Origin: Pontiella desulfatans
GTDB lineage: Bacteria > Verrucomicrobiota > Kiritimatiellia > Kiritimatiellales > Pontiellaceae
Assembly (NCBI RefSeq): GCF_900890425.1
Contig: NZ_CAAHFG010000001.1
Location: 1-64,000 of the forward strand
DNA length: 64,000 bases
Direction: 5' to 3'
Position numbers and translations under genes: made by a program. Shown here one piece after another: positions 3,412 to 36,941 of this stretch (position 1 is its first letter; each line of letters starts with the position of its first letter). The notes under the pieces were generated by a model that did not search any database, had not been told where the DNA came from, and saw only the letters and a list, made by a program, of their open reading frames with translations.

Positions 3412-3454
3412 GTGACAAGCACCCCGTTTCGGCTATAAGTGATACTGTTTACAG
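3412..3454 (+). promoter_or_regulatory. Promoter and putative operator of the GH78 gene
   Basis: The -35 GTGACA (3412-3417), a 16-bp spacer and the -10 TATAAG (3434-3439) are followed directly by TGATACTGTTTACAG (3440-3454). The same 15-mer with one change lies at 36903-36917. Its position just after the -10 box fits a repressor site. Confidence 0.55.
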
Positions 3455-20100: not shown

Positions 20101-21043
20101 TTTTCCGGTTTCGCACAACAACGTTGAACGCACCATTGAGGTGCCGATCAATCCCGGCGCACCCGTGGTGCGGCTCCGCTTCCAGCCCAGCTCTGGTTAT
20201 TTTGAAACCGACGTGCTCGAGATTCTCGTGTTTGATTCAGCGGGAGGTTTGATTGAGTCGATGTCGCTGCTGGATACCGATGGGGATGGCACCACGGACG
20301 GCGATGAAAATGCGGTTGCGCGGAATCCGAACGACCCGGCGGATTTGGGCTTCCATTTCAACGGCCAGAATGATTTTGAGGGGTGGGATACCAATCCGCA
20401 AAACATGGTCGGCTTTGTGGTTAGCAACGGTGCGGTGCAGGGAACAACGACGAGTTCGGATCCTCACTTTGAAAACCATGGCGTCGGATTCGATTCCGCA
20501 CCCGTTCCCGCAGTCACGTTGCGGATGAAGGCTTCGGCCAATGCGGCCGTCCAACTATACTGGGCGCCCCAGGGCGGCGGATTTGTCGGTAACTTTTTAT
20601 CCGAAACCTACACGGGCGGCGGCGATTGGCAGGTGCTGGAATTTATTCTGGAAGGTAATGCAGGCTGGGACGGTAATGTGATCGACAAGCTGCGGGTGGA
20701 TCCGATCGGCACCTCCGGGGCGACCTTCGAGATCGACTGGATCCGTTCCGCCAATGGCGATGCCGACGACGATGGATTCGAGGATTGGGCGGAAATCATT
20801 GCCGGCACCGACCGCCTCGATCCTTCCGAAAATAAGTTTGTAATCTCGGCTGCGGAAATTCCCGTTCAGGTCGATGGCAAGGCCGGGCGCGTTTACTATC
20901 TCCAATGGACGGAGAGCTTGGTGCCGACCGGTTGGGGAACCGTCGAAACCGCGGGGCCGTTGGCATCCGACCAGACGGTTTTCTTTTCCAGCGGAACGCC
21001 CTCAACGAATGGTTTTTATCGAGTGTTAGTGGAGTATCCATGA
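17195..21043 (+). CDS. Large multidomain sulfatase (LamG + sulfatase + TSP3-like), exported
   Basis: This 1282-aa protein has a signal core LGLLFVLLFSGIADA at residues 28-42. A LamG/concanavalin-like domain follows at about 45-280 (LVHHYRLDETF... IRIHDTFLTDQELADLHNV), then a beta-sandwich (about 285-425) and the sulfatase domain (about 428-890) with MLADDLGW, C476 in PLCSPTRAGILTG, GKWHLG and GDNGGW. Next come a beta-rich region, acidic calcium-type repeats (DTDGDGTTDGDEN, GDADDDGFEDW) and a terminal beta domain (LQWTESLVPTGWGTVE). REP copy 5 encodes residues about 7-26, including in-frame ATGs at 17237 and 17258, so the true start could be any of three. It is coupled to the previous stop by ATGA overlap. 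Confidence 0.9.
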   Translation: MKRLNTGAGAFQPPMATAGTRMSPLRLGLLFVLLFSGIADAGLVHHYRLDETFQHETIADSEGTIDGSSTELLRGRGGQIAGSMQFAEEDGDQIDFGAANLLIPSGDFSITAWIRFSSDGMDENERILDCSNGDAFGAMSSGFNFKKQNGTLRAFVGDGVNKVASSTAKSAVVQEQWQLVALRFSVSSAPGSVSDGLVSVTAVPFTNAVMSASGVAAKTDSVGHNLGAVVSATNLLAGAPTGIAASAGLSFDGLMDDIRIHDTFLTDQELADLHNVTVPVASCLRWIFNVDGDSEGWSALNASSNTVADGDYVLVASSADPQLLSPDHLDLDLTGISRVFIKAKNGSASTNGSVFFQTLENPSFVGNSVGFTVVSNDPDTTTYAVDMSVHSNWNGTLTRLRIDLPDGATPGDEIRFDRIAVGESGNRPNVIVMLADDLGWMDVTVNGSDYYQTPNVERLAAAGMNFPNAHSANPLCSPTRAGILTGLYPARVRFNTPNGHSTTVTLDPKVNATANAYLPSTTVGSRSRLPNGYVTYAELMKQTGYSTAFLGKWHLGMDEYVPENQGFDFVIGGRQHSGPPGGYFAPFSGDSNIPADWPDGSPVTTDDHVNDLLAAWAADFVGDNRNQPFLMNLWWYDVHGPFQAKPEVRANYVGLAGTDGRQDSPTMAAMIEVMDDGVGTVLDKLEELGLTDDTIIFFTGDNGGWMYSWIAEDLAVPTDNFPSRAGKACIWDGGTHVPFIVNWPGRVAGGTVNSNNVNNLDIYATVLGMLDLEPYEGYPLDSESLVPSLLGQAPANSNTVFVQFPQAPPATGTFPGVWVRQGDMKLIRFFHGNGGTGNHRYELYNITADPGEEHNLAPGNPALVAQLDALIEQHLVDTEALVPVANPSYVPPAFDGWIPNDGVWVQDGTGGRLKLVSNSFLPALDSPDLSARAVPAKVRVTMTSRSYGPGRIGWKLPGDTEWLGAQSVSFPVSHNNVERTIEVPINPGAPVVRLRFQPSSGYFETDVLEILVFDSAGGLIESMSLLDTDGDGTTDGDENAVARNPNDPADLGFHFNGQNDFEGWDTNPQNMVGFVVSNGAVQGTTTSSDPHFENHGVGFDSAPVPAVTLRMKASANAAVQLYWAPQGGGFVGNFLSETYTGGGDWQVLEFILEGNAGWDGNVIDKLRVDPIGTSGATFEIDWIRSANGDADDDGFEDWAEIIAGTDRLDPSENKFVISAAEIPVQVDGKAGRVYYLQWTESLVPTGWGTVETAGPLASDQTVFFSSGTPSTNGFYRVLVEYP
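17213..17273 (-). repeat. REP family A, copy 5 (full, inverted), inside a signal-peptide region
   Basis: The inverted copy reads GGAGCGGGGGCTTTCCAGC, a 13-bp linker region, then GGGGACAAGAATGTCCCCGC and TCCGTT. It is translated in frame and supplies a potential ATG (17258-17260) 4 codons before the hydrophobic core. Confidence 0.9.
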
Positions 21044-21903
21044 TGAGTAGAATGCAGATGATTGCGTGTTGCCTGGCCGTGTCCGGGAGCGCCTTTGCCG
21101 GATGGGAATATCTGGATAACGGCGAAGTGCGGATCGGGATCGACCGTTCGCGCGGGGCATGCATCGGCTGGTTCGGTGAAAGCGAAACGAAGCGCAACCT
21201 GCTCAATCATTGGGATGAAGGGCGCTTTATCCAGCAGTCGTATTACGGCGCGCCGGATGGATCGAAATGGAACAAGAAGGATTGGGTTTACAACCCGGTG
21301 CAGGGCGGAAGCTGGGACGGCAAACGCTCGAAGGTGCTGACGTTCAAGAAGGATAAAAACAAAACCTCGCTTTACGCAAAGATCGAGCCGCTCAGTTGGT
21401 CGGGGGGTCAAACGTGCCCCGAAGCCATCATGGAACAGACCATCTCGCTCAACGGGCGCGTGGCCCATATCCGGTTCAAACTGACTTATACCGGTAAAGA
21501 CCAAGGCAAACCGCGCCATCAGGAAATGCCGGCCGTTTTTGTGGATGCAGTTCTCTCCAATCTCGTTTATGTGTCGGAGGGGGAATTAACCCGCCGGGTG
21601 CCCGGTTGGCCGAATGAGTCGGGAAAGACGTCCCGGCACTGGACGGCCTGGCTGGACCGGAACGACTGGGGCATTGGCATTTTCACGCCGGGCACCCCGG
21701 AATTCACCTGTTACCGTTTTGCGGGCAATGGCTCCACGGGCTCCGGTGGATCCGCCTGTTCCTATATCGCTCCTGTGCGGACGTTTGCTCTGACAAAAGG
21801 TCTCAAGGTTGAATACGATGTCTACCTCACCATCGGAACCCTCGATGAAATTAAAAACCGGTTTGCGAGCATGCAAGGGGCGGGAAGGCGCTCGCTCCGT
21901 TAG
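21040..21903 (+). CDS. Secreted protein of unknown function, paralogue of 35962-36894
   Basis: This 287-aa protein has a signal peptide (MQMIACCLAVSGSAFA). The mature start WEYLDNGEVRIGIDRSRGAC is almost the same as in the locus 2 lipoprotein at 35962-36894, as are ESET/Q-RNLLNH-DEGRFIQQSYYG, WVYNPVQGGSW, RHQEMPAVFVD, NDWGIGIFTPG, CSYIAPVRTFALTKGL and EYDVYLTIGTL. The pattern suggests an all-beta fold. Both copies sit beside sulfatases and GPH symporters, so a role in glycan binding or cleavage is likely, but no catalytic family is evident. ATG 21040 overlaps the previous stop. The last residues (GAGRRSLR) come from a degenerate REP-like tail. Confidence 0.8.
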   Translation: MMSRMQMIACCLAVSGSAFAGWEYLDNGEVRIGIDRSRGACIGWFGESETKRNLLNHWDEGRFIQQSYYGAPDGSKWNKKDWVYNPVQGGSWDGKRSKVLTFKKDKNKTSLYAKIEPLSWSGGQTCPEAIMEQTISLNGRVAHIRFKLTYTGKDQGKPRHQEMPAVFVDAVLSNLVYVSEGELTRRVPGWPNESGKTSRHWTAWLDRNDWGIGIFTPGTPEFTCYRFAGNGSTGSGGSACSYIAPVRTFALTKGLKVEYDVYLTIGTLDEIKNRFASMQGAGRRSLR

Positions 21904-23000
21904 CCAAGGGAAGCGCGTTCGATGAGGCGGGGCTTGACGTAGGTGACTTTGTTGTAGCCGGGTTCGGCTTCCATGGTACGCAGTTGAAGGATCAACCGTT
22001 CAGCCATGGTTTGGGGGTCGGGGCAGAGGCTGGCGAGCGGCGGATCGGCTTCGGCGGCTTCGGGACTGTCGTCGAATCCAATCACCCGGGCATCCTGCGG
22101 GATGCGCAGGCCGCGGTCGTGCAGGGCGCTGAGCAGCATGATGGCCGTGGGATCGGAGAGCGCGAAGTACCCGGTAGGCTCTTCCTGAGCGGCAACAATC
22201 TTTTCAATTTCCCGCATGCGTGGCAGCAGGTCTTCGGGGAGAGGATATTCCGTAATAACGCTTGAAGGGTTGCCGTGCTGGAGCCAGGCGCGCCGAAAGC
22301 CCAGCGCTCGCAGTTCAAAGATTTCATGCCAGTTGTCGGGGTAATACTGGCTCTCGCCGAGCAGAACAATTTTTTTCGGCTCGCTTTCGCAGAACGCCAT
22401 GCCGGCCACTTCGCCGCCATGGAAGTTATCGATCCGAACGCCGGAGGGCAGATGGTAGCTGAGCGGCGCGGCCAGACTGGTGACCAGCTTGTTTTTTTTC
22501 TGCAGCGGTTTGAAAAAGGGGAAGCTCCAGGAGGCGGCAAGGATGACGGCTTTATAGGGGGTAAGGTCGGCGGCGCAAAGTTTCTTGTTTTCCGTGCCCA
22601 GCAGCAGGTCAATCTCAATGTTGAATCCGTCCTTGTTTGTCTCAAGGCAGCTGTAGACCCGTTGAAGAAACGGATTGGCCAGCGCCATGTTGCCGTTTCC
22701 GACAAAGGCAAGCTTCAGTGCCTTATAGCCCTCGTGGTTGTGACGAAACCGCGGATGCACCAGATAGCGCCCGGTGGGAGTCGTGGTTACGAAACGCTCT
22801 TCTTTTAACTGGAGCAGAGCACGCCAAACCGTATTGCGCGGATAGCCCACCATTTCCTCCAGTTTTCGCACGGCAGGAATTTTCCCGTCATTGGAAAGTT
22901 CCCCCGATTGGATTTTTTTTCGCAGAATGTCGCAGACCGCCTCGGTCTGCGTTTGTGTTGTAATTATTGGTATTTCGCTCATTTGTCCCAGATAGTGCAC
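21900..23000 (-). CDS. GntR-type regulator with sugar-sensor domain
   Basis: This 366-aa regulator has an N-terminal GntR winged helix at about residues 15-85 (TEAVCDILRKKIQSGELS, KIPAVRKLEEMVGYPRNTVWRALLQL) and a LacI/PurR-like periplasmic-binding domain from about 100 (LKLAFVGNGNMALANPF to ARVIGFDDSPEAAEADPPLAS). The GTG at 23000 is chosen because AAGGA lies 6 bp upstream. The internal ATG 22982 lacks a ribosome site. The gene is convergent with the 287-aa protein (stops overlap by 4 bp) and divergent from the first modular protein gene of locus 2. GGGACAAATG, matching the putative operators, lies in its codons 4-7. It probably controls locus 2 and itself. Confidence 0.9.
   Translation of the reverse strand: MHYLGQMSEIPIITTQTQTEAVCDILRKKIQSGELSNDGKIPAVRKLEEMVGYPRNTVWRALLQLKEERFVTTTPTGRYLVHPRFRHNHEGYKALKLAFVGNGNMALANPFLQRVYSCLETNKDGFNIEIDLLLGTENKKLCAADLTPYKAVILAASWSFPFFKPLQKKNKLVTSLAAPLSYHLPSGVRIDNFHGGEVAGMAFCESEPKKIVLLGESQYYPDNWHEIFELRALGFRRAWLQHGNPSSVITEYPLPEDLLPRMREIEKIVAAQEEPTGYFALSDPTAIMLLSALHDRGLRIPQDARVIGFDDSPEAAEADPPLASLCPDPQTMAERLILQLRTMEAEPGYNKVTYVKPRLIERASLG
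22980..22989. promoter_or_regulatory. GACAAAT half-site inside the 5' end of the GntR gene
   Basis: CATTTGTCCC (minus strand GGGACAAATG) matches the half-sites found at 23032-23050 and 25837-25855. It would act as a downstream roadblock or autoregulatory site. Confidence 0.4.
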
Positions 23001-23020
23001 ATGGTGTCCTTAACTTGTCA

Positions 23021-23059
23021 ATCATAAAAAGGAGACAAAATGAGACAAATACCTTGACG
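23021..23059. promoter_or_regulatory. Divergent promoters sharing tandem GAGACAAA operator
   Basis: For the minus strand (GntR gene), -35 TTGTCT is at 23043-23048, the spacer is 16 bp and -10 TATGAT is at 23021-23026. For the plus strand, -35 TTGACG is at 23054-23059 with a weak -10 near TAGATA (23076-23081). Between them are two direct half-sites, GAGACAAA at 23032 and 23042, exactly 10 bp (one helix turn) apart. A bound regulator would cover the GntR -35 and abut the other -35. Confidence 0.6.
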
Positions 23060-23136
23060 TATTAGTGTTTTACACTAGATATGGGTTATCGAATCGGGAA
23101 AGGATTTCTAACTAGTAAACCAAAGGAGAGCAGGTA

Positions 23137-25549
23137 ATGAAAACATACATTGTTGCACTGGTGGCCATGGGGTGGCTAGGCGGGGTTCAGGCTGCGCAGT
23201 TGATTTCATCGGAGGGAGCTTGGAGTAGCTCGGCTGTCAATCCTGCGTCTAATGGCGGAGCTCAAACCAACTGGAATACGGGCGGCGTGTTTGGTCAGTG
23301 GGGGGGGAGCTTCCTTTAATGTCAACGCAGAGACTCAATATATGGATATGCAGGCTACAGTCGGCAATGTTCAGCATACCTATGCGGCGGGGTACACCTA
23401 TGCCTATCAATCAACAGCGGCGGCTGCACTTTCCTCTCATGCAACCAATCAGGTGGTTTATCTAACGGCTAATGGCAGTTTGGTGAGCGGCTCCCGGATT
23501 GCAGGGCCTAACAATACGGGCGCCTATGGTTCGGCCGACACCAGCGCGATTTTCGGCTCATACGCCGTCACCAATGGCGATCCCATCATCGGCCAGTCCA
23601 TAGGCATGCGCCTGAGCAGCGAGGGAATACAAAGCCGGTTTCGTGAAGATGGTGAGAGCTGGGTAAAAACTCGCCTGACGAATCATGCAAATGATTTTGG
23701 TGCTGGCAGGGTAATTTTCAGTATGTCCTTTCAGACAAATAGCTTGAGTTCTCTCGTCGGCGTCGATCATGTGTTGGATATGGTCTTTTCCCAAACCGGA
23801 GGCGAATTTGGGTTTGAGGACAATGTACCTTATTTTTGTATTGAGAATGACACGGCATGGAAGGATTCCTTTTCCATTGCTTCGGAAGACGACTGTTTTC
23901 GTGCGGGAACAAAGTATGTGATCAGTTTCCGGGCCAAGAAGGCAATCAACGGCGATCCGACTCAAAATATGGTTACAGCTTCTGTGGGCAGTTATGCAAC
24001 CAATCTGGTCATTGGTCCTGCTCATGATGTCTACCGGTTGGAGGTTGATTCGGATGAGGCGGGAATCGCAACTAAAGCGATTACCGTCGGCTTCGTCGCA
24101 GAGTCGGTGACGGAGGGCGGAGTTAATCAGTATCGTTTTTATGATCTTGATATATCTGCCAAGTACCCCGATGTTGAGCGATGGTTTGAGGACAATAATC
24201 TAGCAGCAAACGGCGGTGTTCCTCCGGACTTTGAATCGCGCTTTTATGAGCCAGCGCTTTCTGCGTGGACCAACTCGCTGGCGACCATGGATGTCTATTA
24301 CCTCCGCTATGCGACCTATCGTGACTGGCTAAAAACCAATGCCGTTTTAAAAGCCAGAATGGCTGAGGTTTTCAACGAGTATGGGATTAAAGTGGCGCTG
24401 GATGATACCAGGGCCACTTGGGCACATGCTCTGAATAACTATGAGACACCAAGCTATCAGGCGTCAATCAATGTGCTTCAGGATCTGACAGATTATGGGT
24501 GGAGCCTGTGTGCAGTGGGGTTGCAAAGTGTGTTGTCCAAACCCTGGTCGGGCGGTGATTATGCTATGAGCTGGCGTATTCTGGATATTGTGGAATACAT
24601 CATGCAGGTTAAGCCCCATTTCCCCGATCTGGAATACGGCGTAATCGATGCACTGCCTGTAAAAGGACTGGAGTACAAAAGCCATTATACGGATCTGAAA
24701 AATGCGGTAGAGGCGGAGGGATACACGCTCGACTTTATTCACCAGGATTTTCCTGTGGATTATGCCCTTGAGAATAAAAATGGCGTTACCTTCCAAACGA
24801 TGGTTGAGGTGGAGCGGTTTGTGCGAAACGAAATCGGATGCCGTCCGGGCCTCTTCCTGACCAGCTCTGACGGGGGGAAGGCGAGTGATGAGGCGTTCCG
24901 GTCTGATGTTGTTGAGGGTCTGGATGCTTATCTGGCTGCTGGAGGGGGGGCTCGGCATGCTTGCCTGTCGGCCTGGTTTCCGTACCCTGTATACAGTACT
25001 CCGGATGAAGTGGATTCGTCGGTCAATACCAATGGAGCAACCATGTTGGGGACCTTCCTGCTGGCCGATGGGATAATCGATGACTATGAAAGTGTACAGG
25101 GGCTTCCGCTTTCCGACGGTTTTGAAACCGGCTTTGGCAACTGGGTCAGTGCAGATACCAACCAGGTGTTCATTGTGAACAGGACGGCCTCTGAAGGCAG
25201 CCATTCAGTGCTCATCAGTGATGACAAAGCCGGGTCCATGCTGACGCTTGCGCAACCCATTGATGCATCGGCGTATGCTACCCTTTCGATCGGTTTTGAT
25301 TTCATGCCTTTGTCGATGGAGGGGGCGGATGAAGCCTATCTTGAGTATTATAACGGGTTGGAATGGGAGATTGTCGGAGCCTTTGGCCCGTCCTTACGGC
25401 ATGTTAATAAACAGTGGTATGCGACGAATATTGCAGTTGATGCTGCAAGCTACCCGATGCCGCAGGATGCCTGCTTCAGGTTCCGGCAGGCGGGGACAGG
25501 GATTGCCGACTTCATCTACTATGATGCGATCACGGTCGAGGGAAACTAG
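23137..25549 (+). pseudogene. Modular secreted protein (A-B-barrel-like), frameshifted in a G8 tract
   Basis: A signal peptide (MKTYIVALVAMGWLGGVQA) and module A start in one frame, which stops at 23319. The rest continues one frame over to 25549. The break is a run of eight G (23300-23307). With seven G the protein reads FGQWGGASFN, exactly as in the intact paralogue at 28759-31479. Full length would be about 803 aa: module A (about 20-175), one module B beta-sandwich (about 190-345), a barrel-like domain (about 350-640, MDVYYLRYATYRDW, YGIKVALDDT, FPDLEYGVIDALPVKGLEYKS) and a MAM-like beta tail. The enzyme class is unknown. It could be phase-variable or inactive, or the extra G could be a sequencing error. 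Confidence 0.8.
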
Positions 25550-25579
25550 CATGGCGCGTCGTTCCTCATAACGGGCAGG

Positions 25580-25610
25580 AGAAGCCGCGGGCGAAGCGCT
25601 CGCGGCTTCT
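25580..25610 (+). terminator. Stem-loop after the frameshifted gene, probable terminator
   Basis: A 10-bp stem AGAAGCCGCG / CGCGGCTTCT (25580-25589, 25601-25610) has an 11-nt loop. The T tract after it is poor (TACTG), so it may attenuate or stabilise rather than terminate. Confidence 0.55.
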
Positions 25611-25788
25611 TACTGCTTCGGTAGTATGTCGGGTTCCTGCTCCCAGAGCGTTTTGAGGTGCACACTGCGGAATTTACGCGCAAGCGAATGTTCCGCAAGG
25701 GAAATTCCTCCGAGTCAATTTTTTTACCCGTGACACGGGATGTCTCAGGTTTGCAATTCCATATGAATGTATTGATTTATTGCGCATG

Positions 25789-25864
25789 TGTCCCACTTGT
25801 TGGGCGGAATGTCCCATTTGTGTCTTGGGCTTATGAGAGACAAAGTGGGACAAATAGGTTGACA
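25789..25864 (+). promoter_or_regulatory. Promoter with four GACAAA-type half-sites
   Basis: The -35 TTGACA is at 25859-25864 with a weak -10 (TACCGT, 16-bp spacing). Just upstream are GAGACAAA (25837) and GGGACAAAT (25847), again 10 bp apart. Further upstream are two inverted sites, TGTCCCACTTGT (25789) and TGTCCCATTTGTGTC (25810). The block GGGACAAATA-GG-TTGACA matches GAGACAAATA-CC-TTGACG at 23042-23059. Confidence 0.55.
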
Positions 25865-25946
25865 GGATGATTTTTCATAGTACCGTGAGCTTATCGATCG
25901 GTATTCTTTGAGGTATGACAAAAGGTGAAACGGAGAGGAAAGAATC

Positions 25947-27848
25947 ATGAAAAAGTGGATCACAACAATTGTTGCTATTGGATTGGCTTGTGGAATTCAG
26001 GCCGGAACGCTGATTACTTCGGATGGGGCATGGAGCAGTACCAGTATTAACGCCACATCAAACGGCGGAATGCAGACGAACTATATTAATGGCGGAGCAT
26101 TCGGCACAACGCTTGGCAAGGATTGGTATCGATCCAATGCAGATGCTGAGACTACCAACACCATGTACATGTCTGCCGTGTCCGGAAATCCCGATCTTAC
26201 CTACCAGGCGGGAAAGACCTACATCTACCAGATTCAGGGCTATGCCGCGATTGAGAGTCACTCCAACACGCAGAATGTCATGCTGATCGCCGGCAGTGAT
26301 ACAAACGGCATCGCCGGAACACTGGTGAGCGGGCTGAATAATACCGGTGTGTATGGCATTAACGACCAGGTGGCGATTTCGGGGTCCTACACCGTCGAGG
26401 TGGGCGATCCAATTATCGGTCAGCCGATCGGGATGAAGTTGTTCAGCAGCGGTATCCAGACCCGCTGGTACAGCGACGGAAGTTCGTTCATTTCCAGCGT
26501 ACTGGCCGACCATATTTCGACAGGCACATTGTTCAGCACGGAATTTGAACTGGATGGAGCAGGCGAACTGATTACCACGGCAAACCCGATTGAAATGGAA
26601 GTTGTTGTAGGTAATGAATTGATTATTACCAACGCCGTAGACAGCTATTTCCGCATGAATATCACCGCGGAGGGAGCCAAAAATAATTTCAAACTGGATG
26701 CTCAGGCGGATTCGTTCCGGGCATCGACCCTTTATACCTTAAGCTTCCGAGGGCAGAAAGCCATTAACGGTGACGCCGCACAAAACGAAGTGGACATCAT
26801 TCTGGGGGGAACCTACACCAATACGCTCGCTATCAGCACCACAACCACACCGTATTCAATGGTCATCAATCCGGATGAAATCGGCCTGGTTGGGGATGAT
26901 CTGAGCATCGAATTTGTTCCGGCCGGTGCGGCAACGGCGGTTAACCAGTACCGGGTCTTCAATGTTGACTTTTCGGCGGAAGCTCCGCCGCCGGTTCACA
27001 CCGGGCTGCTCTACCAGACTTCCTTCGAAACCAATGCCGTCGGAGTCATTGCTGTCAACAATATCGATTTGGAAGTCGTGGACGGATTCGATTTAATCAA
27101 GGAGGCGGCCGATAATTATGTTTCGATGAATCTGAATGGTTCTGCTCGCAATGATTTTCAGCTGGCCGCCGCTGCGGATACCTTCCGCGAACTGACGACC
27201 TATACCTTCAGCTTTGCCGCGAACAAGACGATTAGCAACGATGCAACCCAGAACGAGCTGGGCTTAATCCTGGGCGGAGTCTACACCCAGACTGTGGTGG
27301 TCAGCAGTTCCTCGAAGCTGCCGTTTTCTTTCGATGTGAACGCGGAAGACCTCGGCTTCGAGGGTCAACCCTTCAGCATTGAAATCGAGCCGCTGGGAAC
27401 GACTTCGGCGGTCAATCAATACAGGGTGTATAATCTGGAAATCACGGCAGTCGATATTCCCGCCGACCTGACGACCAACGGAACACCGCATCCATGGCTG
27501 GACGACTATTATCCGGGGCTGGAGACGGACGAGGAATATGAAGCGCAGGACATTTCCGATACCGATGGCGACGGCTTCCGGGCCTGGCAGGAATACCAGC
27601 TCGGAACCGATCCCACCAATGCGCTATCGCTGCTGACCATCACCGAGGCTGCTCCGGCGGTGGGCGGTGAGTTCGTCGTGACCTGGCAGTCGGCCGCCGG
27701 CAAGAGCTACAACATCCTGACCAATGTAAACCTCACTGTTGGCAACTGGGGCACGGCAGCCACGGCTGTACCTTCCGCCGGCGCTGAAACCTCGTACACC
27801 ACCACCGTGGGCAGTGCAGTGAATTTCTTCCAAGTGGAGTTAGACTAA
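25947..27848 (+). CDS. Modular secreted protein (A-B-B), unknown function
   Basis: This 633-aa exported protein has a signal peptide MKKWITTIVAIGLACGIQA. Module A (about 20-185) is shared with the proteins at 23137 and 28759 (ITSDGAWSS, SNGG, GDPIIGQPIGMKL-SSGIQ). Two tandem module B beta-sandwiches follow (about 190-345 and 352-505), each with a S/NYFRMN or NYVSMN, FR-L-TYTLSF and NQYRV motif set. A calcium-type segment (DTDGDGFRAWQEYQLGTDP) and a terminal beta domain (WQSAAGKSYNILTNVNL) complete it. No barrel domain is present, so it may be a binding or surface protein working with the barrel-containing paralogues. Confidence 0.85.
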   Translation: MKKWITTIVAIGLACGIQAGTLITSDGAWSSTSINATSNGGMQTNYINGGAFGTTLGKDWYRSNADAETTNTMYMSAVSGNPDLTYQAGKTYIYQIQGYAAIESHSNTQNVMLIAGSDTNGIAGTLVSGLNNTGVYGINDQVAISGSYTVEVGDPIIGQPIGMKLFSSGIQTRWYSDGSSFISSVLADHISTGTLFSTEFELDGAGELITTANPIEMEVVVGNELIITNAVDSYFRMNITAEGAKNNFKLDAQADSFRASTLYTLSFRGQKAINGDAAQNEVDIILGGTYTNTLAISTTTTPYSMVINPDEIGLVGDDLSIEFVPAGAATAVNQYRVFNVDFSAEAPPPVHTGLLYQTSFETNAVGVIAVNNIDLEVVDGFDLIKEAADNYVSMNLNGSARNDFQLAAAADTFRELTTYTFSFAANKTISNDATQNELGLILGGVYTQTVVVSSSSKLPFSFDVNAEDLGFEGQPFSIEIEPLGTTSAVNQYRVYNLEITAVDIPADLTTNGTPHPWLDDYYPGLETDEEYEAQDISDTDGDGFRAWQEYQLGTDPTNALSLLTITEAAPAVGGEFVVTWQSAAGKSYNILTNVNLTVGNWGTAATAVPSAGAETSYTTTVGSAVNFFQVELD

Positions 27849-27885
27849 AACTTATGGTGAAACGACGAGAAAAGGAGATAAAAAA

Positions 27886-28677
27886 ATGAAAAAGAATAAG
27901 GCTATACTGGCAGTAGCGTTTGCATTGGTTTGCGGCGCTCATGCGGCGTTGATCGGAGAGTGGAGCTTCGATGGCCAGAATATGTACAATGCAGCAGAAA
28001 CCCCCGCCACGACTCATCGTGGGATATACCGCTATCATAACGGGACAGCAATGGTAAATTCTGAAACCGGGGTTTTCAGCACGGATACACGTTTGGGTGA
28101 GGGATATTCGCTCGATCTGAGTGCAGCTAAAGCGCATATGTATATCCATGACTCAACAACGTATCTGCCCACGACCACATTCACCTACTCGGTGTTTGTC
28201 AAGGTGGACGGCTGGCAGGATGGTACCTGGGATACAATCTTATCCAAGCAGAGTGGAGGCTCAGCAGGTTTTGCCCTGAGACACACTTCGAATCTGGACT
28301 ATACGGGCGTGGACCTTATTGGAGAAACAACCAATATCCGGGATGTTACGGATCAGGTGAACGTTGCGGATAATGGCTGGCACCATCTGGCGTTTACGTA
28401 TGACGGAACCACGGCGAAATATTATATCGATGGCGTTCTCAGGAGGTCTCTTGCGAGTGATTTCACTCCGGACACAGGCAGTTTTCTAGTCCTGGGGGCT
28501 CAGGATACGGCCGGTAATGAGCAGTTTGGCGGGTTGGTGGATGATCTCTCGGTTTATGACACCGCGCTTACTGCGGAGGAGATTGCTGCCATCGCAATTC
28601 CCGAGCCGGCCACGCTGGGCATGGTCTTATCTTTCAGCGTGGCGATCGTCGCAATTCGCAGAAGGCTGATCATGTAA
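27886..28677 (+). CDS. LamG-domain protein with PEP-CTERM sorting signal
   Basis: This 263-aa protein has a signal peptide (MKKNKAILAVAFALVCGAHA) and one laminin-G/concanavalin-like domain at about 22-232 (LIGEWSFDGQ, FTYSVFVKVDGWQDG, GWHHLAFTYDGTTAKYYIDG, GGLVDDLSVYDTALTAEEIAAI). The C-terminus has PEP (IPEPATLG), a hydrophobic span and RRR, the PEP-CTERM signal processed by exosortase in Gram-negative bacteria. AAGGAGA lies 7-8 bp before the ATG. A strong terminator follows. It is probably a surface glycan-binding protein. No exosortase gene is in the window. Confidence 0.92.
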   Translation: MKKNKAILAVAFALVCGAHAALIGEWSFDGQNMYNAAETPATTHRGIYRYHNGTAMVNSETGVFSTDTRLGEGYSLDLSAAKAHMYIHDSTTYLPTTTFTYSVFVKVDGWQDGTWDTILSKQSGGSAGFALRHTSNLDYTGVDLIGETTNIRDVTDQVNVADNGWHHLAFTYDGTTAKYYIDGVLRRSLASDFTPDTGSFLVLGAQDTAGNEQFGGLVDDLSVYDTALTAEEIAAIAIPEPATLGMVLSFSVAIVAIRRRLIM

Positions 28678-28700
28678 GGACTTTTTGTCGAGAACCGCAG

Positions 28701-28737
28701 GCCCGATGAAAATGACATGTGTTTCATCGGGCTTTTT
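28701..28737 (+). terminator. Intrinsic terminator after the PEP-CTERM gene
   Basis: An 11-bp perfect stem GCCCGATGAAA / TTTCATCGGGC is followed by TTTTT (28733-28737). The next gene starts only 22 bp later without a clear promoter. Confidence 0.9.
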
Positions 28738-28758
28738 ATCGAGTGGCGCAACAAGATT

Positions 28759-31479
28759 ATGAAATTGGTACATTTTATATCCGCGGTTTACAGTTTCCTG
28801 CTGTCGTTTGCAGGTGGGGTGCAGGCGGCGGTGCTTGTAAGCTCTGACGGAGCTTGGAGTACCAATGAACTCATTACAATCTCCAAAGGGGGCTTACAAT
28901 CCAACTCGAATTCAGGGGGAACCTTCGGCTCCTGGGGAGGGGCTTCGTTCAATGCAAATGCCGAGTCGCATTACTTGGATATGGAAACTACGGTTTCAAA
29001 TATTCAACACATCTACACGCCTGGATATACCTACAGCTATAAGGCCTCGGCCGCAGCCGCGCTGGCCAACATGATGACGAATCAGGTGGTGTATCTGCTG
29101 GCTGATGGAGCTCCGGTTTCGGCAAGCCGGGTTGCCGGAAAAAACTATCTGGGTACGTTCGGGTCTGACAACCGTAATTCGGTCTATGGGTATTATTCGG
29201 CTGAGGCCGGAGATCCACTAATCGGTCAGACCGTCGGCATGCGGTTGACCAGTGAGGGCATTCAGTCGCGCTTTCGGGCAGACGGGGATTCCTCTCTTCG
29301 CGTTTTGCTGACCAGTCATGCCGGTTTTGACGACTACACTGTTTTGCCGCAATCTTCTACACATGCAATCGCCGGCCTGCTGTTTGAAACAGAATTTGAG
29401 ATGGATGCGGGCGGACTGGTCGCCAGTGAGAATGTCATCGGGCTGACGACGGATGATGGGAGTTTGATCGTCACCAATGCTACGGACAGCTATTTTCGCA
29501 TGAACCTAAACGATACGGGAGGGCGAAACGCCTTCAAACTGAATAGTGATTCCGACACATTTCAGGAGTTGACGATCTATCGCCTGGATTTTCGGGCTTT
29601 TAAGTCGATTGATGCCGACCCCTCTCAGAATGAAGTACATGTTGTTCTTGGTGGCAGCTATACGAATACCATCAACATCGGCACATCCGAGAGCTCCTAC
29701 TCGACGGTGGTCGATTCCGACGAGACGGGGCTTGCTGGCAGCGATCTTCGTGTTGAGTTTGTCCCTGCGGGTACGGGAACTGTTTCCGGGATTAACCAAT
29801 ATCGGGTCATGGATCTTTCCATATCCGCAGATTCAACAACCGTTGATTCCGGGTTGCTCTATTACACCGCTTTCGAAACGAACGGTGCGGGTTTGGTTGA
29901 GACGGATTATGTGCTGGATATGATCTTTTCCGGGGACGGGACATTCGGGCTGGAAGATGGTGTAAACTGCTATGTCCTGCCTGCGACTGCCGGTAGTGCA
30001 GCATCCTGCTCGGTTGTCTCGGCCGATGATACATTCCGACAGGGAACAACGTATGAAGTTTCATTCCAGGCCCGCAGCCTGGTCCGTGAGAATCCATCAC
30101 TGTTGACTGTTTCAGCAGGTTCGTTCACCACGAATATCGTAGTAGGTCGGGGATATGTCGATTGTACGCTCCTGGTTGATGCGGATGCGGTCGGCATCAG
30201 CGGCGAGCCGCTGAGCATTGAACTGGTGCCGGAGTTGAGTCCCGTCTCCAACGAATATCGTATCAAAAACCTGAAACTTGCTGCGGTTTCTCAGGCCATC
30301 GGATGCTGGTTTGAAGACAGTAACCTGGGCACGAACGGAGGAATCCCACCGGACTTTGAATCGCGTTTTTATGAACCTCAGCTTTCGACGTGGACGAATG
30401 CGTTGGAAACCATGGAGGTCTATTACCTCCGCTATGCCACCTATCGCGATCATCTGGCGGACAATGTGGAGCTGAAGACCCGAATGGCTGAGGTGTTCAA
30501 TGCATACGGTATCAAGGTGGCGCTGGACGACACGGAGCCGACGTGGGGGCATGCCAAGTATAATTACAATACACCGAACTATCAAAATTCGATCAATGCG
30601 CTTCAGGATCTGGAGAATCATGGATGGAACCTCTGTGCGGTGGGGATGCAGAGTGTCCTGTCCAAGCCGTGGTCAGGTGGTGACTATGCTATGAGCTGGC
30701 GCATTCTGGATGTCGTGGAATATATCAAACAGGTGAAGCCCCATTTCCCCGATCTCGAATACGGAGTCATCGATGCACTGCCTGTCAAAGGCCTGGAGTA
30801 TAAGAGCCATTATGCGGATTTGAAAAATGCGGTAGAGGCGGAGGGATACACGCTCGACTTTTTTGAGCAGGATTTCCCCATCGATAAGGTGCTTACGGGG
30901 GAGCGTACCCATGAAGAGATGATTGATGCGGAGCGTTTCGCCCGCCATGCGCTCGGGTGCAAATCAGGTCTGTTTCTGACGAGTTCCAGGGGCGGGAATG
31001 ACAGCGATGAGCTGTGGCGTTCCGATGTGATTTCCGGGCTGGATCAACATATTTTCAACGGCGCGGCTCCCGAGCGCATTACCCTGGCCGCGTGGTATCC
31101 TCATCCGGTCTATACGGCTCCCGATGAGACGGATCCCCTCCTGAATCCCAACGGATCCACCATGCTGGGCACGTTGATCCTGATGGAAGAGAAGGTGCGT
31201 GAAACCGGTTTTACTGCTTTGCCGGATTCTTCATTGATTACCGTTAAATCGGACAACCCGCAGGTCGATTTTTATATCAATTCATCTGAAGTATTAATTC
31301 AGTGGGACTCACTGACCGGGCGCGAATATAATCTATACAGTACGACCAATCTTCTGGAAGGATTCCTGTTGATGAAGGGCGGGATGAGCTATCCTCAGGG
31401 CAGTTTTTCTGACTCATCGATATCAACGAATAAGAACAGGTTTTATAAACTGGACAGTAATGAGCAGGTGCCTCTGTGA
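28759..31479 (+). CDS. Modular secreted protein (A-B-B-barrel-like), intact
   Basis: This 906-aa protein is the intact homologue of the frameshifted 23137 gene. It has a signal peptide (residues 1-23, FISAVYSFLLSFAGGVQA), module A (about 24-195), two module B beta-sandwiches (about 205-360 and 370-520), the barrel-like domain (about 525-820) and a short terminal beta domain (LIQWDSLTGREYNLYSTTNL). The barrel part is nearly identical in protein and very close in DNA to 24180-24760, indicating recent duplication. Conserved acidic residues (VALDDTEPTW, PDLEYGVID) could be catalytic, but I recognise no GH family. The upstream ATG 28717 lies in the terminator stem, so ATG 28759 is used; its ribosome site is weak. 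The stop overlaps the next GTG start. Confidence 0.85.
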   Translation: MKLVHFISAVYSFLLSFAGGVQAAVLVSSDGAWSTNELITISKGGLQSNSNSGGTFGSWGGASFNANAESHYLDMETTVSNIQHIYTPGYTYSYKASAAAALANMMTNQVVYLLADGAPVSASRVAGKNYLGTFGSDNRNSVYGYYSAEAGDPLIGQTVGMRLTSEGIQSRFRADGDSSLRVLLTSHAGFDDYTVLPQSSTHAIAGLLFETEFEMDAGGLVASENVIGLTTDDGSLIVTNATDSYFRMNLNDTGGRNAFKLNSDSDTFQELTIYRLDFRAFKSIDADPSQNEVHVVLGGSYTNTINIGTSESSYSTVVDSDETGLAGSDLRVEFVPAGTGTVSGINQYRVMDLSISADSTTVDSGLLYYTAFETNGAGLVETDYVLDMIFSGDGTFGLEDGVNCYVLPATAGSAASCSVVSADDTFRQGTTYEVSFQARSLVRENPSLLTVSAGSFTTNIVVGRGYVDCTLLVDADAVGISGEPLSIELVPELSPVSNEYRIKNLKLAAVSQAIGCWFEDSNLGTNGGIPPDFESRFYEPQLSTWTNALETMEVYYLRYATYRDHLADNVELKTRMAEVFNAYGIKVALDDTEPTWGHAKYNYNTPNYQNSINALQDLENHGWNLCAVGMQSVLSKPWSGGDYAMSWRILDVVEYIKQVKPHFPDLEYGVIDALPVKGLEYKSHYADLKNAVEAEGYTLDFFEQDFPIDKVLTGERTHEEMIDAERFARHALGCKSGLFLTSSRGGNDSDELWRSDVISGLDQHIFNGAAPERITLAAWYPHPVYTAPDETDPLLNPNGSTMLGTLILMEEKVRETGFTALPDSSLITVKSDNPQVDFYINSSEVLIQWDSLTGREYNLYSTTNLLEGFLLMKGGMSYPQGSFSDSSISTNKNRFYKLDSNEQVPL

Positions 31480-33131
31480 GTAAAAAATGGTTCACCCTCG
31501 GGATACTTATTTCGGTGGCACTGGTTGGAAAGGTCTCGGCAACGAAGCCGCCAAGGCCAAATATTATTTTCGTTTTGGCGGATGATCTGGGCTATATGGA
31601 CCTGGTGTCCTATGCGGCGCGGGTCAAGGGGGTGGATCGGGAAGGGTGTTATTATGAAACGCCGAACCTCGACCGGTTGGCGGATCAGGCGGTGGTGTTT
31701 ACGCAGGCGTATGCCTGCCCGCTCTGTTCGCCGACACGCTCCAGCCTGATTACTGGGAAATATGCCGCGAGCCAGGGCTTTATGACCGCTACGCCCGGCG
31801 GCTATAAAACGTATTATAACCAGGGGATGGAGACGCCGGACGGTTTCTACGATCAGGACGGACTGGAAAACAAAACCGATCGTTCTCAATGGCCACTGAC
31901 GCAGGGCATCTCGAATATTGCTTTGCCGTCCGGAGAAACCACGATTGCTGAAGCGCTGGCCGGCTACAACTCGGCCTTTATCGGCAAATGGCATCTGGGC
32001 GGGCATGGCTCCGAAGGGTTTTCGCCGTCCGACCAGGGCTTTGAAGCGCTGGCCTGGTTTGATTCCGGCGGCTCGGAGTATTTTAACTGGCGCGACCGCT
32101 GGAACGGGAAAAAGAAAGAGCATCCCAATATGGCGCAGGCGGAACTGCAGCAGGGCAATGCTGGTGGGGAAACCGGTGAGGACTATCTCACCGATGACCT
32201 CACCGTACAGGCCTGCCGCTATATCGAACGGCAGGCGAAATCGGATAAGCCGTTCTTTCTCTATTTCTGCCAGTTCGCGGTGCATACCCCGTTCGGCGCC
32301 AAGCCGGAGGACATCAAACACTTCGCCCAAAAGAAGACGCGCGGATGGAACGGGCACGCCAACCCGACCTATGCCGCGATGCTGAAAAGTATGGACGACT
32401 CCATCGGAGCGCTGATCCAGACCCTTGAAAAAACCGGGCAGGCGGATAACACGGTGATCGTCTTCATGTCCGACAACGGCGGTATTGTGCATCCCGACGA
32501 AAACGGAAAACCCGCCGTCAGCAACAACGCACCGCTCAAAGGTGAAAAGGCGCTGCTCTATGAAGGCGGCATCCGCGTTCCGTTAATGATCTGGTATCCG
32601 AAGTCGGTGAAACCCGCCCTGTGCGACGTGCCGGTCGACTGCAACGATCTCTACCCAACCTTACTCGAAATGGGCGGTGAGCCGCCGGCATCCGGCGACG
32701 GCGAGTCACTCGTTCCTTTGTTAATCAATCCAAAGAATATTTCGCAGAAATATTCTCGCGACACCTTTTTCTGGCACTATCCCTTTTATGTGTCGGTCGG
32801 CCTGAAGAAGGGCGTCCTGACCGGACCGCGCTCCGCCATCCGTAAGGGCGACTGGAAACTGATCCTCAATTGGGAAGGCGGGTTGGAGCTTTACAATATC
32901 CGCACCGATCTTTCGGAAGCCTCCGAGCTGTCTGCCAAAGAACCCGAGCGTACTCAGGCGATGTTCAAGGAGCTGGCCGGCTGGCTAAACGAAACGGTTG
33001 AGACGCGCTATATCCCAAGAACCAACAGCCGATTTGATCCGCAGCACGCCGAGGCGCGACCCTTTAAAAATATCTTTGAACAACAGAATATGAGCCGGCC
33101 GATTGGCCGTATTTCGAGAGTGGAGAAATGA
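31476..33131 (+). CDS. Type I sulfatase, exported (GTG start)
   Basis: This 551-aa sulfatase starts with GTG 31476, overlapping the previous stop (GTGA). AGCAGG precedes it. The signal peptide is residues 1-22 (FTLGILISVALVGKVSA). LADDLGY supplies metal ligands, C84 in CPLCSPTRSSLITG is the formylglycine site, and GKWHLG and MSDNGGI follow. The C-terminus beyond 500 is short. It is coupled to the following sulfatase by ATGA overlap, implying the two are made together, and fits removal of different sulfate positions on the same glycan. Confidence 0.92.
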   Translation: MSKKWFTLGILISVALVGKVSATKPPRPNIIFVLADDLGYMDLVSYAARVKGVDREGCYYETPNLDRLADQAVVFTQAYACPLCSPTRSSLITGKYAASQGFMTATPGGYKTYYNQGMETPDGFYDQDGLENKTDRSQWPLTQGISNIALPSGETTIAEALAGYNSAFIGKWHLGGHGSEGFSPSDQGFEALAWFDSGGSEYFNWRDRWNGKKKEHPNMAQAELQQGNAGGETGEDYLTDDLTVQACRYIERQAKSDKPFFLYFCQFAVHTPFGAKPEDIKHFAQKKTRGWNGHANPTYAAMLKSMDDSIGALIQTLEKTGQADNTVIVFMSDNGGIVHPDENGKPAVSNNAPLKGEKALLYEGGIRVPLMIWYPKSVKPALCDVPVDCNDLYPTLLEMGGEPPASGDGESLVPLLINPKNISQKYSRDTFFWHYPFYVSVGLKKGVLTGPRSAIRKGDWKLILNWEGGLELYNIRTDLSEASELSAKEPERTQAMFKELAGWLNETVETRYIPRTNSRFDPQHAEARPFKNIFEQQNMSRPIGRISRVEK

Positions 33132-34573
33132 TGAAGAAGTGGATTACAGGATTATTGATTGCTGCATCACTTGCAGCGCATGGCGCCAAACAGCCGAATA
33201 TTATTATAATTTTGACGGATGATCACGGCTACGCGGATCTGGGTGCAAACGGAATTGTTGACGATGTCAAAACGCCGCATCTGGACCAGCTGGCGGCCGG
33301 CGGCGCGCGTATGACGAGCGGTTATGTGACGGCACCGCAGTGCACCCCGTCGCGGGCGGGTATCATGACGGCCCGCTATCAGCAGCGCTTCGGGGTGGAT
33401 TCAAATGAATATGTTCCGATCCCCGCCGATGAACCCACCATCGCCGAGCGCCTGCGTGATGCGGGATATACCACGGGTATCGTCGGCAAGTGGCATCTGA
33501 CGCCGCATCATCTGGCAAAGACCTGGATGAAGGACCATTATCCGGAAGGCCTGGAAAAAGAGGGCGCGTTCGCCATTCCTTTCGAAAAATGCCTGCCGCA
33601 TTCGCCGATCGAAAAGGGGTTCGATGAATATTTCTGGGCACCGATGACGGCCTATCAGTGCAACTTTGATTTGGAGGGGAACGATATTCCCAACGCGCCG
33701 AAGCGAATTATAAACAAAGATTTCCGGGTCGATGTGCAGACCGATGCCGCGATGGCGTTTCTGAAGCGCAGGGAGAAGGATGATAACCCGTTTTTCCTCT
33801 ATCTCGCCTATTACGCGCCGCATGTTCCGCTGGAGGCGCCGGGCAACTATCTGGACCGGTTTCCCGGCGAAATGACCGAGCGTCGCCGGCACGGGCTGGC
33901 GATGATTTCCGCGGTAGACGATGGCGTGGGGCGGATTATGGACTATCTCAAGAAGGAAAACCTGGAAGAAGATACGATGGTATTCTACCTCGCGGACAAC
34001 GGGGCTCCCTACAAAATTACGAAACCCGATACGCCGATCACGGGTAAGTCGGGCCCCGAGTGGACCGGTTCCCTGAACGATCCCTGGATCGGTGAAAAGG
34101 GCATGCTTTCCGATGCAGGCATCCATGTTCCGTATATTGTTTCCTGGCCGGGAACCATTTCGCCGGTGGTTTACGAACAGCCGGTCCTGTCGCTCGATAT
34201 GGGGGCAACCGCACTCGCGGCGGCAGGCGTTAAAACCAACCCCGGCGCGATCGACGGGGTTGACCTGCTTCCTTTCCTTTTAAACGCAAAAAAAGGCGCG
34301 CCGCATGATGCTCTGTACTGGCGCTTCTGGGGGCAATCTGCCATCCGCGAAGGAAAGTGGAAGCTGCTCTCGCTGGGGAACGGGGTCCAGATGCTCTTCG
34401 ACATGGAAAGCGATCAGCATGAGCATAAAAACGTAATCGCTGAATACCCGGAATTGGCCGAACGCCTCGAGAAAAAACTGAGCGTCTGGCGCGATGAGAT
34501 GCAGCGGCCGGGCTTCCCGGATGCCTACGGCCGCGAACGCCCGTGGTACAACCATTACTTTGGAGTTAAATAG
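33128..34573 (+). CDS. Type I sulfatase, exported
   Basis: This 481-aa sulfatase has a signal peptide MMKKWITGLLIAASLAAHGA and LTDDHGY. The formylglycine site is C72 in PQCTPSRAGIMTA, where the usual final Gly of the motif is Ala. GKWHLT and ADNGAP follow. It is a close paralogue of the locus 1 sulfatase at 10903-12336, with the same block order (YQQRFG, FRVDVQTDAAMAF, YYAPHVPLEAPGNYLDRFPGEM). The next gene, the symporter, begins immediately after its stop. Confidence 0.92.
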   Translation: MMKKWITGLLIAASLAAHGAKQPNIIIILTDDHGYADLGANGIVDDVKTPHLDQLAAGGARMTSGYVTAPQCTPSRAGIMTARYQQRFGVDSNEYVPIPADEPTIAERLRDAGYTTGIVGKWHLTPHHLAKTWMKDHYPEGLEKEGAFAIPFEKCLPHSPIEKGFDEYFWAPMTAYQCNFDLEGNDIPNAPKRIINKDFRVDVQTDAAMAFLKRREKDDNPFFLYLAYYAPHVPLEAPGNYLDRFPGEMTERRRHGLAMISAVDDGVGRIMDYLKKENLEEDTMVFYLADNGAPYKITKPDTPITGKSGPEWTGSLNDPWIGEKGMLSDAGIHVPYIVSWPGTISPVVYEQPVLSLDMGATALAAAGVKTNPGAIDGVDLLPFLLNAKKGAPHDALYWRFWGQSAIREGKWKLLSLGNGVQMLFDMESDQHEHKNVIAEYPELAERLEKKLSVWRDEMQRPGFPDAYGRERPWYNHYFGVK

Positions 34574-35962
34574 GTGGAGAAAACGGTTCCAATAAAGGTG
34601 CGTGCGGCGTGGGGGCTTGGCGGATGGGCGGATAATTTTATCTTCCAGGTGCTGATTATCCTCGCGCTGCCCATCTACAATATTGAGCTGGGAATTGATC
34701 CGGTCTGGGTCGGCGCGGCGCTGATGGTTCCTCGTCTATTCGACGCGATCACCGATCCGCTGATGGGTAATATTTCCGACAACACACGCAGTAAATGGGG
34801 GCGTCGCCGTCCATGGATATTTATCGGTGCATTGGTGTCGGCGATTCTGCTGCCGCTGCTCTGGATGCCGCCGTTTTCCGACAAGGTCGCGGTCATTATT
34901 TATTTCGGTATCATCAGCACGATCTACGCGCTGACCTATACGATGTTTGTGGTGCCGTATACTGCACTCGGTTTTGAGCTGACCGAGGACTATGACGAGC
35001 GCACGAAGGTGATGAGCTGGCGCATGTATATCGGCCTGATTGCCGGGCTGTGCATTCCGAATCTCTATGTCTGGTGCCAGAACGATCTGTTCGGTGGCGA
35101 TATTCTGACCGGCGCGCGCTGGGTCACTGCGCTGGTTGGTCTTTCGGTGCTGATCACCGGCTGCCTGCCTGCACTGCTGTGCCGTGAAAAGGTGGCCGAG
35201 AAACCGCAGCCGAAAATAAAACTCGGCAAGGCGATTCTTGAAACGGTCAAGGACAAGCCCTTTCGGCTGCTGCTGAGCGGATACATTATCATTATCACCG
35301 GACTGCTTACATCAGCTGCAGTCGCGTTGTATGTGAACATCTACCATGTCTTCGGCGGCGACAAGAAGCTGGCGGCTGAGGTGTCGGCACTCGGTGGAAT
35401 GGCCGGGGTGCTGGCGGCTTATATCGGAGTTCGTCTTGCAGGCTGGATATCAGCGAAAACCGGTAAGCGCGAAACCATGATCGGCGGTTTCGGCCTGGCG
35501 CTGCTATCCGTCGGCAGTATGGTTTTTACCATGCGCCCGGGCTTCGAAGTAACCGAAGTGTTCGGCTTTAAGTTTCATCCACAGATTATCTCGTTTTTCT
35601 TCTATGGTATGGGGCAGCAGGCCTGCTGGCTGATGATCGACTCCATGACCGCCGACGTGTGCGACGAGGATGAACTGCGAACCGGCCTCCGCCGAGAAGG
35701 CATGTTCGGAGCCGTCAAAAGTCTGGCGCTGAAAGCCGGCGTGGCACTGACCGGCCTGACCGGCGGACTGGTGATTAAGCTGGCCGGTGCCGGCTATGCC
35801 GCACAGGGAGTGTCTCCCGAGGTGGCTCAGATACTGAAAACCCTGTTTGTTTCCATTCAGACCATCGGCCTGGTTGCCGGAATTCTGGTCTTTATTTTTT
35901 ATCCTATCTCCCGCGCGAAATCCGAAGAGACTCGCCGAATCCTAAATGAGAGGAAAGCATAA
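34574..35962 (+). CDS. GPH-type (MFS) sugar:cation symporter
   Basis: This 462-aa 12-TM transporter starts with GTG 34574, directly after the preceding TAG, using GGAG inside the end of the sulfatase gene. It carries DAITDPLMGNISDN and TRSKWGRRRPW, WRMYIGLIAG and CDEDELRTGLRREGMFG, all matching the locus 1 symporter at 5749-7512, but lacks that protein's 130-residue loop. It probably imports the same or a related sugar. The last codons overlap the next ATG by one base. Confidence 0.93.
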   Translation: MEKTVPIKVRAAWGLGGWADNFIFQVLIILALPIYNIELGIDPVWVGAALMVPRLFDAITDPLMGNISDNTRSKWGRRRPWIFIGALVSAILLPLLWMPPFSDKVAVIIYFGIISTIYALTYTMFVVPYTALGFELTEDYDERTKVMSWRMYIGLIAGLCIPNLYVWCQNDLFGGDILTGARWVTALVGLSVLITGCLPALLCREKVAEKPQPKIKLGKAILETVKDKPFRLLLSGYIIIITGLLTSAAVALYVNIYHVFGGDKKLAAEVSALGGMAGVLAAYIGVRLAGWISAKTGKRETMIGGFGLALLSVGSMVFTMRPGFEVTEVFGFKFHPQIISFFFYGMGQQACWLMIDSMTADVCDEDELRTGLRREGMFGAVKSLALKAGVALTGLTGGLVIKLAGAGYAAQGVSPEVAQILKTLFVSIQTIGLVAGILVFIFYPISRAKSEETRRILNERKA

Positions 35963-36894
35963 TGAAAAACTGGATTTATCTGATCAGTGTTATTGTGGCT
36001 GCCGGATGTAATGCATCCACCAATGAGGGGTCTGTTTTGGTGCTGAATACGCATACGCTGTCATCTGAGGATGGCTGGGAATATATCGACAACGGGACAT
36101 TGAAGATCGGAGTGGACCGTTCTCGCGGTGCGTGCATCGGTTTTTTCGGTGAGAGCCAAACGGGTCGCAACCTGCTCAACCATTTTGATGAGGGACGGTT
36201 TATACAGCAGTCTTATTATGGCCAGGCGGATGGTTCGGACTGGAACGGAAAACCCTGGGTCTATAACCCAATCCAGGGCGGAAGTTGGCTGCGTGTGCCC
36301 GCCAAGGTCCATGAATTCAATAAAGCAGAAGATGAGCTTTATGCCAAAATTGAGCCTCGCCACTGGGCCAGCGGAGTGCTGTGTCCGGAGATGGTAATGC
36401 AACAAACGATTACGCTGGATGGCGATGTGGCAAAAATTTCTTTCAGCATGAAGTATGACGGCCCGGATCAGGGTGAACCAAGGCACCAGGAACTGCCGGC
36501 AGTTTTTATCGACGGGGCGTTACCGAATTTTTATTACACTAAAAACGGAACGCTTACCAATGAAGCGCCGCGAATCCTCGCTGAAAACGGGAAAGAGGGT
36601 GTTGACGGTTTAGGCCTCGGCGAATCGACTTCGGAATGGGTGGCCTATCTGGATGATACCAACTGGGGTATCGGAATATTCACGCCCGGAACCACTGATT
36701 TCACGGTCTACCGAGCGCTGGGCGACGGCACCACCGGGGAAAAGGGATCGGCCTGCTCGTATGTGGCTCCATTGCGCACATTCGCTCTCACGAAGGGATT
36801 AGAGGTGGAATACGATGTCTATCTTACGATCGGTACCCTGAAAGAAATTACGCGCCGATTTAGCGCCCTGAAATTGAATAGTCATTTGTATTGA
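35962..36894 (+). CDS. Lipoprotein of unknown function, paralogue of 21040-21903
   Basis: This 310-aa protein has a lipoprotein signal (IYLISVIVAAGC, Cys at residue 16), so it is anchored to a membrane, whereas the locus 1 paralogue has an ordinary signal peptide. The domain starting WEYIDNGTLKIGVDRSRGAC aligns over its whole length with that paralogue. An extra stretch of about 15 residues (GKEGVDGLGLGES) lies before SEWVAYLDDTNWGIGIFTPG. GAGAGGAAAG precedes the ATG. The conserved aromatic and acidic residues hint at glycan contact, but no enzyme family is recognised. Confidence 0.82.
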   Translation: MKNWIYLISVIVAAGCNASTNEGSVLVLNTHTLSSEDGWEYIDNGTLKIGVDRSRGACIGFFGESQTGRNLLNHFDEGRFIQQSYYGQADGSDWNGKPWVYNPIQGGSWLRVPAKVHEFNKAEDELYAKIEPRHWASGVLCPEMVMQQTITLDGDVAKISFSMKYDGPDQGEPRHQELPAVFIDGALPNFYYTKNGTLTNEAPRILAENGKEGVDGLGLGESTSEWVAYLDDTNWGIGIFTPGTTDFTVYRALGDGTTGEKGSACSYVAPLRTFALTKGLEVEYDVYLTIGTLKEITRRFSALKLNSHLY

Positions 36895-36902
36895 TGAATA
36901 TA

Positions 36903-36917
36903 TGATAATGTTTACAG
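36903..36917 (+). promoter_or_regulatory. Second copy of the GH78-promoter operator-like site
   Basis: TGATAATGTTTACAG differs from 3440-3454 by one base and continues into AGTAA like the site at 3301-3311. It lies 25 bp before the GTG start of the GH106-like gene. Confidence 0.5.
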
Positions 36918-36941
36918 TAAGGGACATTAAGGAGTTTTTTT

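Follow-up and report, generated by a model that had tools for sequence, protein, structure and literature searches.

We have identified in Pontiella desulfatans a domain of secreted multi-domain proteins, here called D. In the reading that we favor with modest confidence, D belongs, as a divergent branch, to a new family of glycosidase-like barrels and acts on a glycan that is sulfated and contains rhamnose, within a GntR regulon and alongside a partner protein of modular structure A-B-B. The window analyzed is the whole stretch of 64,000 nucleotides at positions 1 to 64,000 of contig NZ_CAAHFG010000001.1, with a G+C content of 56.8%. P. desulfatans F1 has an 8.6 Mb genome of 56.0% G+C and grows on sulfated polysaccharides (PMC7356697).

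A preliminary description had named three genes starting at 23137, 25947 and 28759, all on the plus strand; the latter two are intact, whereas the first is frameshifted. The D1 gene (23137-25549) encodes a signal peptide, module A (23197-23689), one module B (about 23714-24160), domain D (24164-25096) and a C-terminal beta-rich tail. Its frame from 23137 opens with a signal-peptide-like stretch and ends after 60 aa at 23319, and the body of the protein is read in frame +1 as ORF 23252-25549; the frame changes at eight consecutive G residues (23300-23307) within module A. This run may mark a slippage site, a recent break or an assembly error. A second G8 run, at 48037, was considered as breaking another gene and was rejected, as the transporter frame is open there. 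A 469-aa multi-span transporter-like protein (47378-48787), flanked by sulfatase genes, has no Pfam match at 1e-5. The A-B-B protein (633 aa; intact ORF 25947-27848) consists of a signal peptide, module A (26007-26513), two B modules (26523-26978 and 27003-27449), a weak TSP3 repeat and a C-terminal tail, and lacks domain D. The D3 protein (intact ORF 28759-31479; 906 aa counted from an internal ATG) carries a signal peptide, module A (28828-29322), two B modules (29374-29829 and 29851-30282), domain D (30289-31215) and a C-terminal tail.

As had been proposed, module A is common to all three proteins (E 1.5e-104 to 7e-25), module B occurs once in D1 and twice in each of the other two, and domain D is present in two of the three, where it is 67-70% identical and retains the three motif blocks quoted earlier. 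In the 8.66 Mb genome, module A was found in these proteins and in one further protein (C1:3666569-3667051) and nowhere else; the seven copies of module B all fall within the same four proteins, and close copies of D are located in three of the four (24227-25069, 30352-31197 and C1:3664742-3665584). Compared with D of D3, the other two copies are 70% (E 4.6e-135) and 80% (E 1.3e-155) identical, and the sharing of modules and domains among these proteins exceeds chance by far. Module B had been called a beta-sandwich, a label that found no backing in any significant Pfam or PDB match; profile searches of the PDB with modules A and B gave no significant match, and among carbohydrate-binding module families CBM_4_9 reached E 0.057-0.1, below the cut-off. 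Short C-terminal tails of the type GKxYxLxxxxNLxxxxW are alike in the proteins at 17195, 25947, 28759 and L007:3087-6770, which are secreted and otherwise unrelated, and this tail may serve in sorting or anchoring.

The D copies have no match above the curated cut-offs in Pfam or NCBIfam, in agreement with the earlier statement that D lies outside known families. A single-sequence search with D returned three distant relatives at 25-33% identity, two of them encoded in its own genome and the third in a different one, and profile searches found members in 12 of 388 genomes of the phylum, 17 of 346 of the class and 7 of 198 of another class. Profile-profile comparison of D with other subgroups gave E values of 1e-10, 7.6e-14 and 1.9e-5, compared with 0.07-0.3 for control profiles (GH29, an epimerase-like protein and sulfatases), and profile A3 matched D significantly across the whole barrel. 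None of 22 superfamily relatives had a Pfam match, PDB profile searches with the whole superfamily and with its subgroups gave no significant match, and a search of viral contigs and plasmids found nothing. By these profile comparisons, D is assigned to an undescribed glycosidase-like superfamily, thinly spread over its own class and one other. Among the genomes sampled by profile, the close D branch is confined to its own genome; a scan of 84,980 species with one degenerate pattern, which leaves room for close D copies elsewhere, returned a single relative, L057.

The setting of the relatives is also one of glycan-active proteins. In another genome of the class, the barrel at L067:6915-8846 is fused to GH43 (Pfam 1.1e-19); elsewhere, two relatives adjoin GH29, one occurs with CBM96 and one with a dockerin, and superfamily members of group 2 adjoin sulfatases. 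Truncated and internally deleted barrel copies are seen at L029:1501-1845 and L025:1156-1776; one of the two lies close to an intact member within the P. desulfatans genome.

The description of D as barrel-like is supported through the model of a relative. An AlphaFold2 model of D from a two-row alignment was poor, with a pLDDT of 40.5 and weak matches to known folds. Mixed alignments of D and L057 were out of register and were dropped in favor of alignment A16, in which D was placed under L057 solely with those C-terminal parts that align well. The L057 model (pLDDT 63, pTM 0.68) has eight strand-helix units, with strands at residues 2-7, 32-37, 61-65, 104-106, 150-156, 199-207, 244-250 and 282-286 alternating with helices. 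Foldseek ranked GH79 (1.9e-6) and GH191 (4e-6) first, followed by GH1, GH51 and GH10 among other barrels, and VIA placed GH1 at the top (Z 13.2, rmsd 5.0, 289 aligned); epimerases and other non-glycosidase barrels follow closely behind, and no family stands out. With the moderate confidence of this model, L057 is predicted to be a (beta/alpha)8 barrel resembling glycosidases, and by homology we infer that D would adopt the same fold.

The active-site signature sets D apart from the remainder of the superfamily. Outside the D group, in an alignment of 26 members that includes seven left out of profile building, the end of strand beta-3 carries Glu in 25, the end of beta-4 carries Asp in every member, and the end of beta-6 carries Asp or Glu in every member; no conserved acid is found at strand 7. 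All three D copies instead have Asp, Gln and Asp at these positions, which correspond in D1 to nucleotides 24401, 24524 and 24746, and in D3 to Asp80 (codon 30526), Gln121 (codon 30649) and Asp195 (codon 30871). The Gln was aligned opposite the beta-4 Asp in two independent profile comparisons. A superfamily relative in the same genome (L009:8525-9934) retains this Asp. Because only two of the three strand-end acids are kept, the D group is regarded, on its aligned residues, as a divergent branch and not as a typical superfamily member. The D clade sits on a very long branch (3.4 changes per column), and its position in the tree is unsure. Ka/Ks among the three D copies is 0.12-0.17, an approximate value with Ks near saturation; the domain is under purifying selection, i.e. 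it is maintained. A Gln at beta-4 in a maintained domain points either to an altered mechanism or to a binding role. Of the catalytic residues proposed earlier, the first D of VALDD lies in a conserved acid column, while the E of LEYG was rejected, as it is not conserved and is aligned with K, Q, R and others. The better candidates are two Asp residues, in the VALDD and EQDFP blocks, and the odd position is the Gln in the MQS block.

Known families of similar architecture differ from the superfamily in these residues or in their setting. The GH191 barrel (grouped with GH114, GH135 and GH166; alpha-galactosaminidases; PF03537, TM1410) is similar in size to the L057 model, and its structure 9euz is among the best Foldseek matches, at the above E of 4e-6, although TM-scores are only 0.44-0.49. 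The 22 superfamily members have no PF03537 match at E up to 10, and the genomic setting of GH191 and GH114 differs from that of the D loci. GH114 and GH191 are recognized by an Asp/Glu pair atop the barrel; the putative counterparts here would be the beta-4 Asp and the beta-6 Asp or Glu, of which the D group lacks the former. Clan GH-A (GH1, GH10, GH51 and GH79) shares the (beta/alpha)8 fold of the L057 model and supplies the top match in both fold comparisons, GH79 in Foldseek and GH1 in VIA, yet sequence identity is 7-13%. The catalytic residues of this clan are Glu on strands 4 and 7, whereas in the superfamily strand 4 bears Asp, replaced by Gln in D, and a conserved acid is absent from strand 7. 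The endo-1,3-fucanase family GH168 is likewise secreted, acts on a sulfated methylpentose glycan and has reported homologues in Kiritimatiellaeota (PMC7401878). Its strictly conserved D206 and E264, compared by way of the description of that family, are 58 residues apart, a spacing unmatched by the superfamily acids; the absence of GH168 from the fold lists of the L057 model carries no weight.

The genes around D1 and D3 point to a sulfated glycan. A gene on the minus strand (21900-23000), divergent from and adjoining D1, encodes a GntR-type DNA-binding and LacI-type sugar-sensing regulator (Pfam GntR 2.3e-9, Peripla_BP_3 4.9e-23). A LamG-domain protein with a PEP-CTERM-like end (27886-28677, plus strand; Laminin_G_3 1.6e-27; PEP-CTERM 0.012, below cut-off) is encoded between the A-B-B and D3 genes. 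Downstream of D3, all on the plus strand, are two sulfatases (31476-33131, Pfam Sulfatase 9e-53; 33128-34573, 3.6e-52), a GPH-type sugar:cation symporter (34574-35962; Pfam MFS_2 4.4e-69; TIGR00792 8.5e-61, below its cut-off), a secreted protein (35962-36894) and a GH106 alpha-L-rhamnosidase (36942-39995; Glyco_hydro_106 4.3e-14). The regulator and the two sulfatases are thus placed as first described. Among the genes scanned, the window holds nine sulfatases and two MFS-type sugar transporters, and it contains GH78 genes at 3439, 43943 and 54054 in addition to the GH106 gene. In marine Verrucomicrobiota, a gene set of GH78, GH106 and sulfatases has been tied to sulfated glycans containing fucose and rhamnose (PMC8857213). 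The substrate of the present system is probably a sulfated, rhamnose-containing polysaccharide, as judged from the neighboring genes only.

The secreted protein at 35962-36894 is one of four copies, spread over two loci, of a family (RIGIDRSRGACIGWFGES...NLLNHWDEGRFIQQSYYG) that has no Pfam match, the others lying at 20905-21903, L008:1378-1998 and L008:7055-9466 (C-terminal part). These proteins constitute a second undescribed family within the regulon.

The whole locus (window 21900-39995) is duplicated 3.6 Mb away with gene order kept, at C1:3655001-3671042 (within L008, C1:3655001-3675000). The repeated block comprises the GntR-type regulator, LamG protein, D protein, both sulfatases, GPH symporter, unclassified secreted protein and GH106, and protein identities between the loci run from 36% (LamG) up to 92% (symporter), with 85% for the regulator and 77% for GH106. 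The D protein of the duplicate, Dp, is the fourth family member and has modules A, B and D; counterparts of the D1 and A-B-B genes are absent there.

An 18-bp repeat, GAGACAAAATGRGACAAA, followed by TTGACG, occurs in the gap between the regulator and D1 and in the matching gap of the duplicate locus. Within the window, operator-like sites lie on the plus strand before D1 (GAGACAAAATGAGACAAA, 23032-23049, then TTGACG) and before the A-B-B gene (GAGACAAAGTGGGACAAA, 25837-25854, then TTGACA), where 0.02 occurrences would be expected. The consensus GRGACAAARTGRGACAAA has three matches in the genome, all exact although two mismatches were allowed; they precede D1 (23032), the A-B-B gene (25837) and the LamG-Dp operon, and each is followed by TTGAC. 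With up to two mismatches allowed, the reversed consensus, used as a control, matched the genome twice; the weight of the 18-bp site therefore lies in its exactness and placement. A sigma-70 scan found promoter-like sites no more frequently than in shuffled sequence, and the TTGAC boxes are therefore put forward only for their conservation after the 18-bp site. These predicted operators suggest one dedicated GntR regulon that includes the sulfatases, the GPH symporter and GH106. The same site before a gene without D fits the proposal that the A-B-B protein is a non-catalytic partner, a role predicted here from sequence.

In the model that we favor, modules A and B would anchor the protein to the glycan, and the putative (beta/alpha)8 barrel of domain D would attack the polymer extracellularly. 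The sulfatases and GH106 would then trim the fragments, the GPH symporter would take up the sugar, and the GntR-type regulator would sense it, with the A-B-B protein, which lacks a barrel and is under the same type of site, acting as a binding partner. Of these steps, hydrolysis by D is the one of which we are least sure, at about even odds, since the D group has Gln where all other members have the beta-4 Asp. If active, D would need its beta-3 and beta-6 Asp residues or another base. More specifically, the D group could constitute a new family of glycoside hydrolases that targets a sulfated rhamnose-containing glycan and in which Gln replaces the beta-4 carboxylate by a switch of mechanism; this proposal is a tentative one that we consider rather unlikely.

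The exchange of Asp, present in 26 of 26 other members, for Gln in all three D copies could also be read as a loss of catalysis, in which case the D domains would be pseudoenzymes that only bind glycan and supplement modules A and B. The great length of the branch leading to the D clade and the constant pairing of D with these modules agree with such a loss, but the beta-3 and beta-6 acids are retained in 3 of 3 copies and the A-B-B protein already provides a pure binder without a barrel. Purifying selection is compatible with either role, and we judge a purely binding D to be possible, at somewhat over one chance in four. Less probable still, and in our view improbable, is that D is another barrel enzyme of the same glycan, such as a sugar epimerase or isomerase, a lyase or an esterase. 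D-tagatose and D-psicose 3-epimerases are indeed among the fold matches of L057, and the chemistry is not fixed by any family match. Metal-dependent epimerases of such a fold, however, require Glu, Asp and His ligands, and the A3 alignment has no conserved His column; glycosidases came first in both fold comparisons, and the secreted multi-domain setting, with GH43 and dockerin fusions among the relatives, also argues against this assignment.

The proposal of a new glycan-active enzyme family is plausible for the superfamily and less certain for the D copies, where the case for catalysis is weakened by the Gln at beta-4. Few enzymes are known to open sulfated algal polysaccharides, and the superfamily gives several candidates that could be cloned. 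The operator-like site offers a handle on induction and thereby on the substrate, and the D branch poses the question of whether a barrel that is missing an otherwise invariant Asp of the active site now works by a different chemistry or serves as a binding module.
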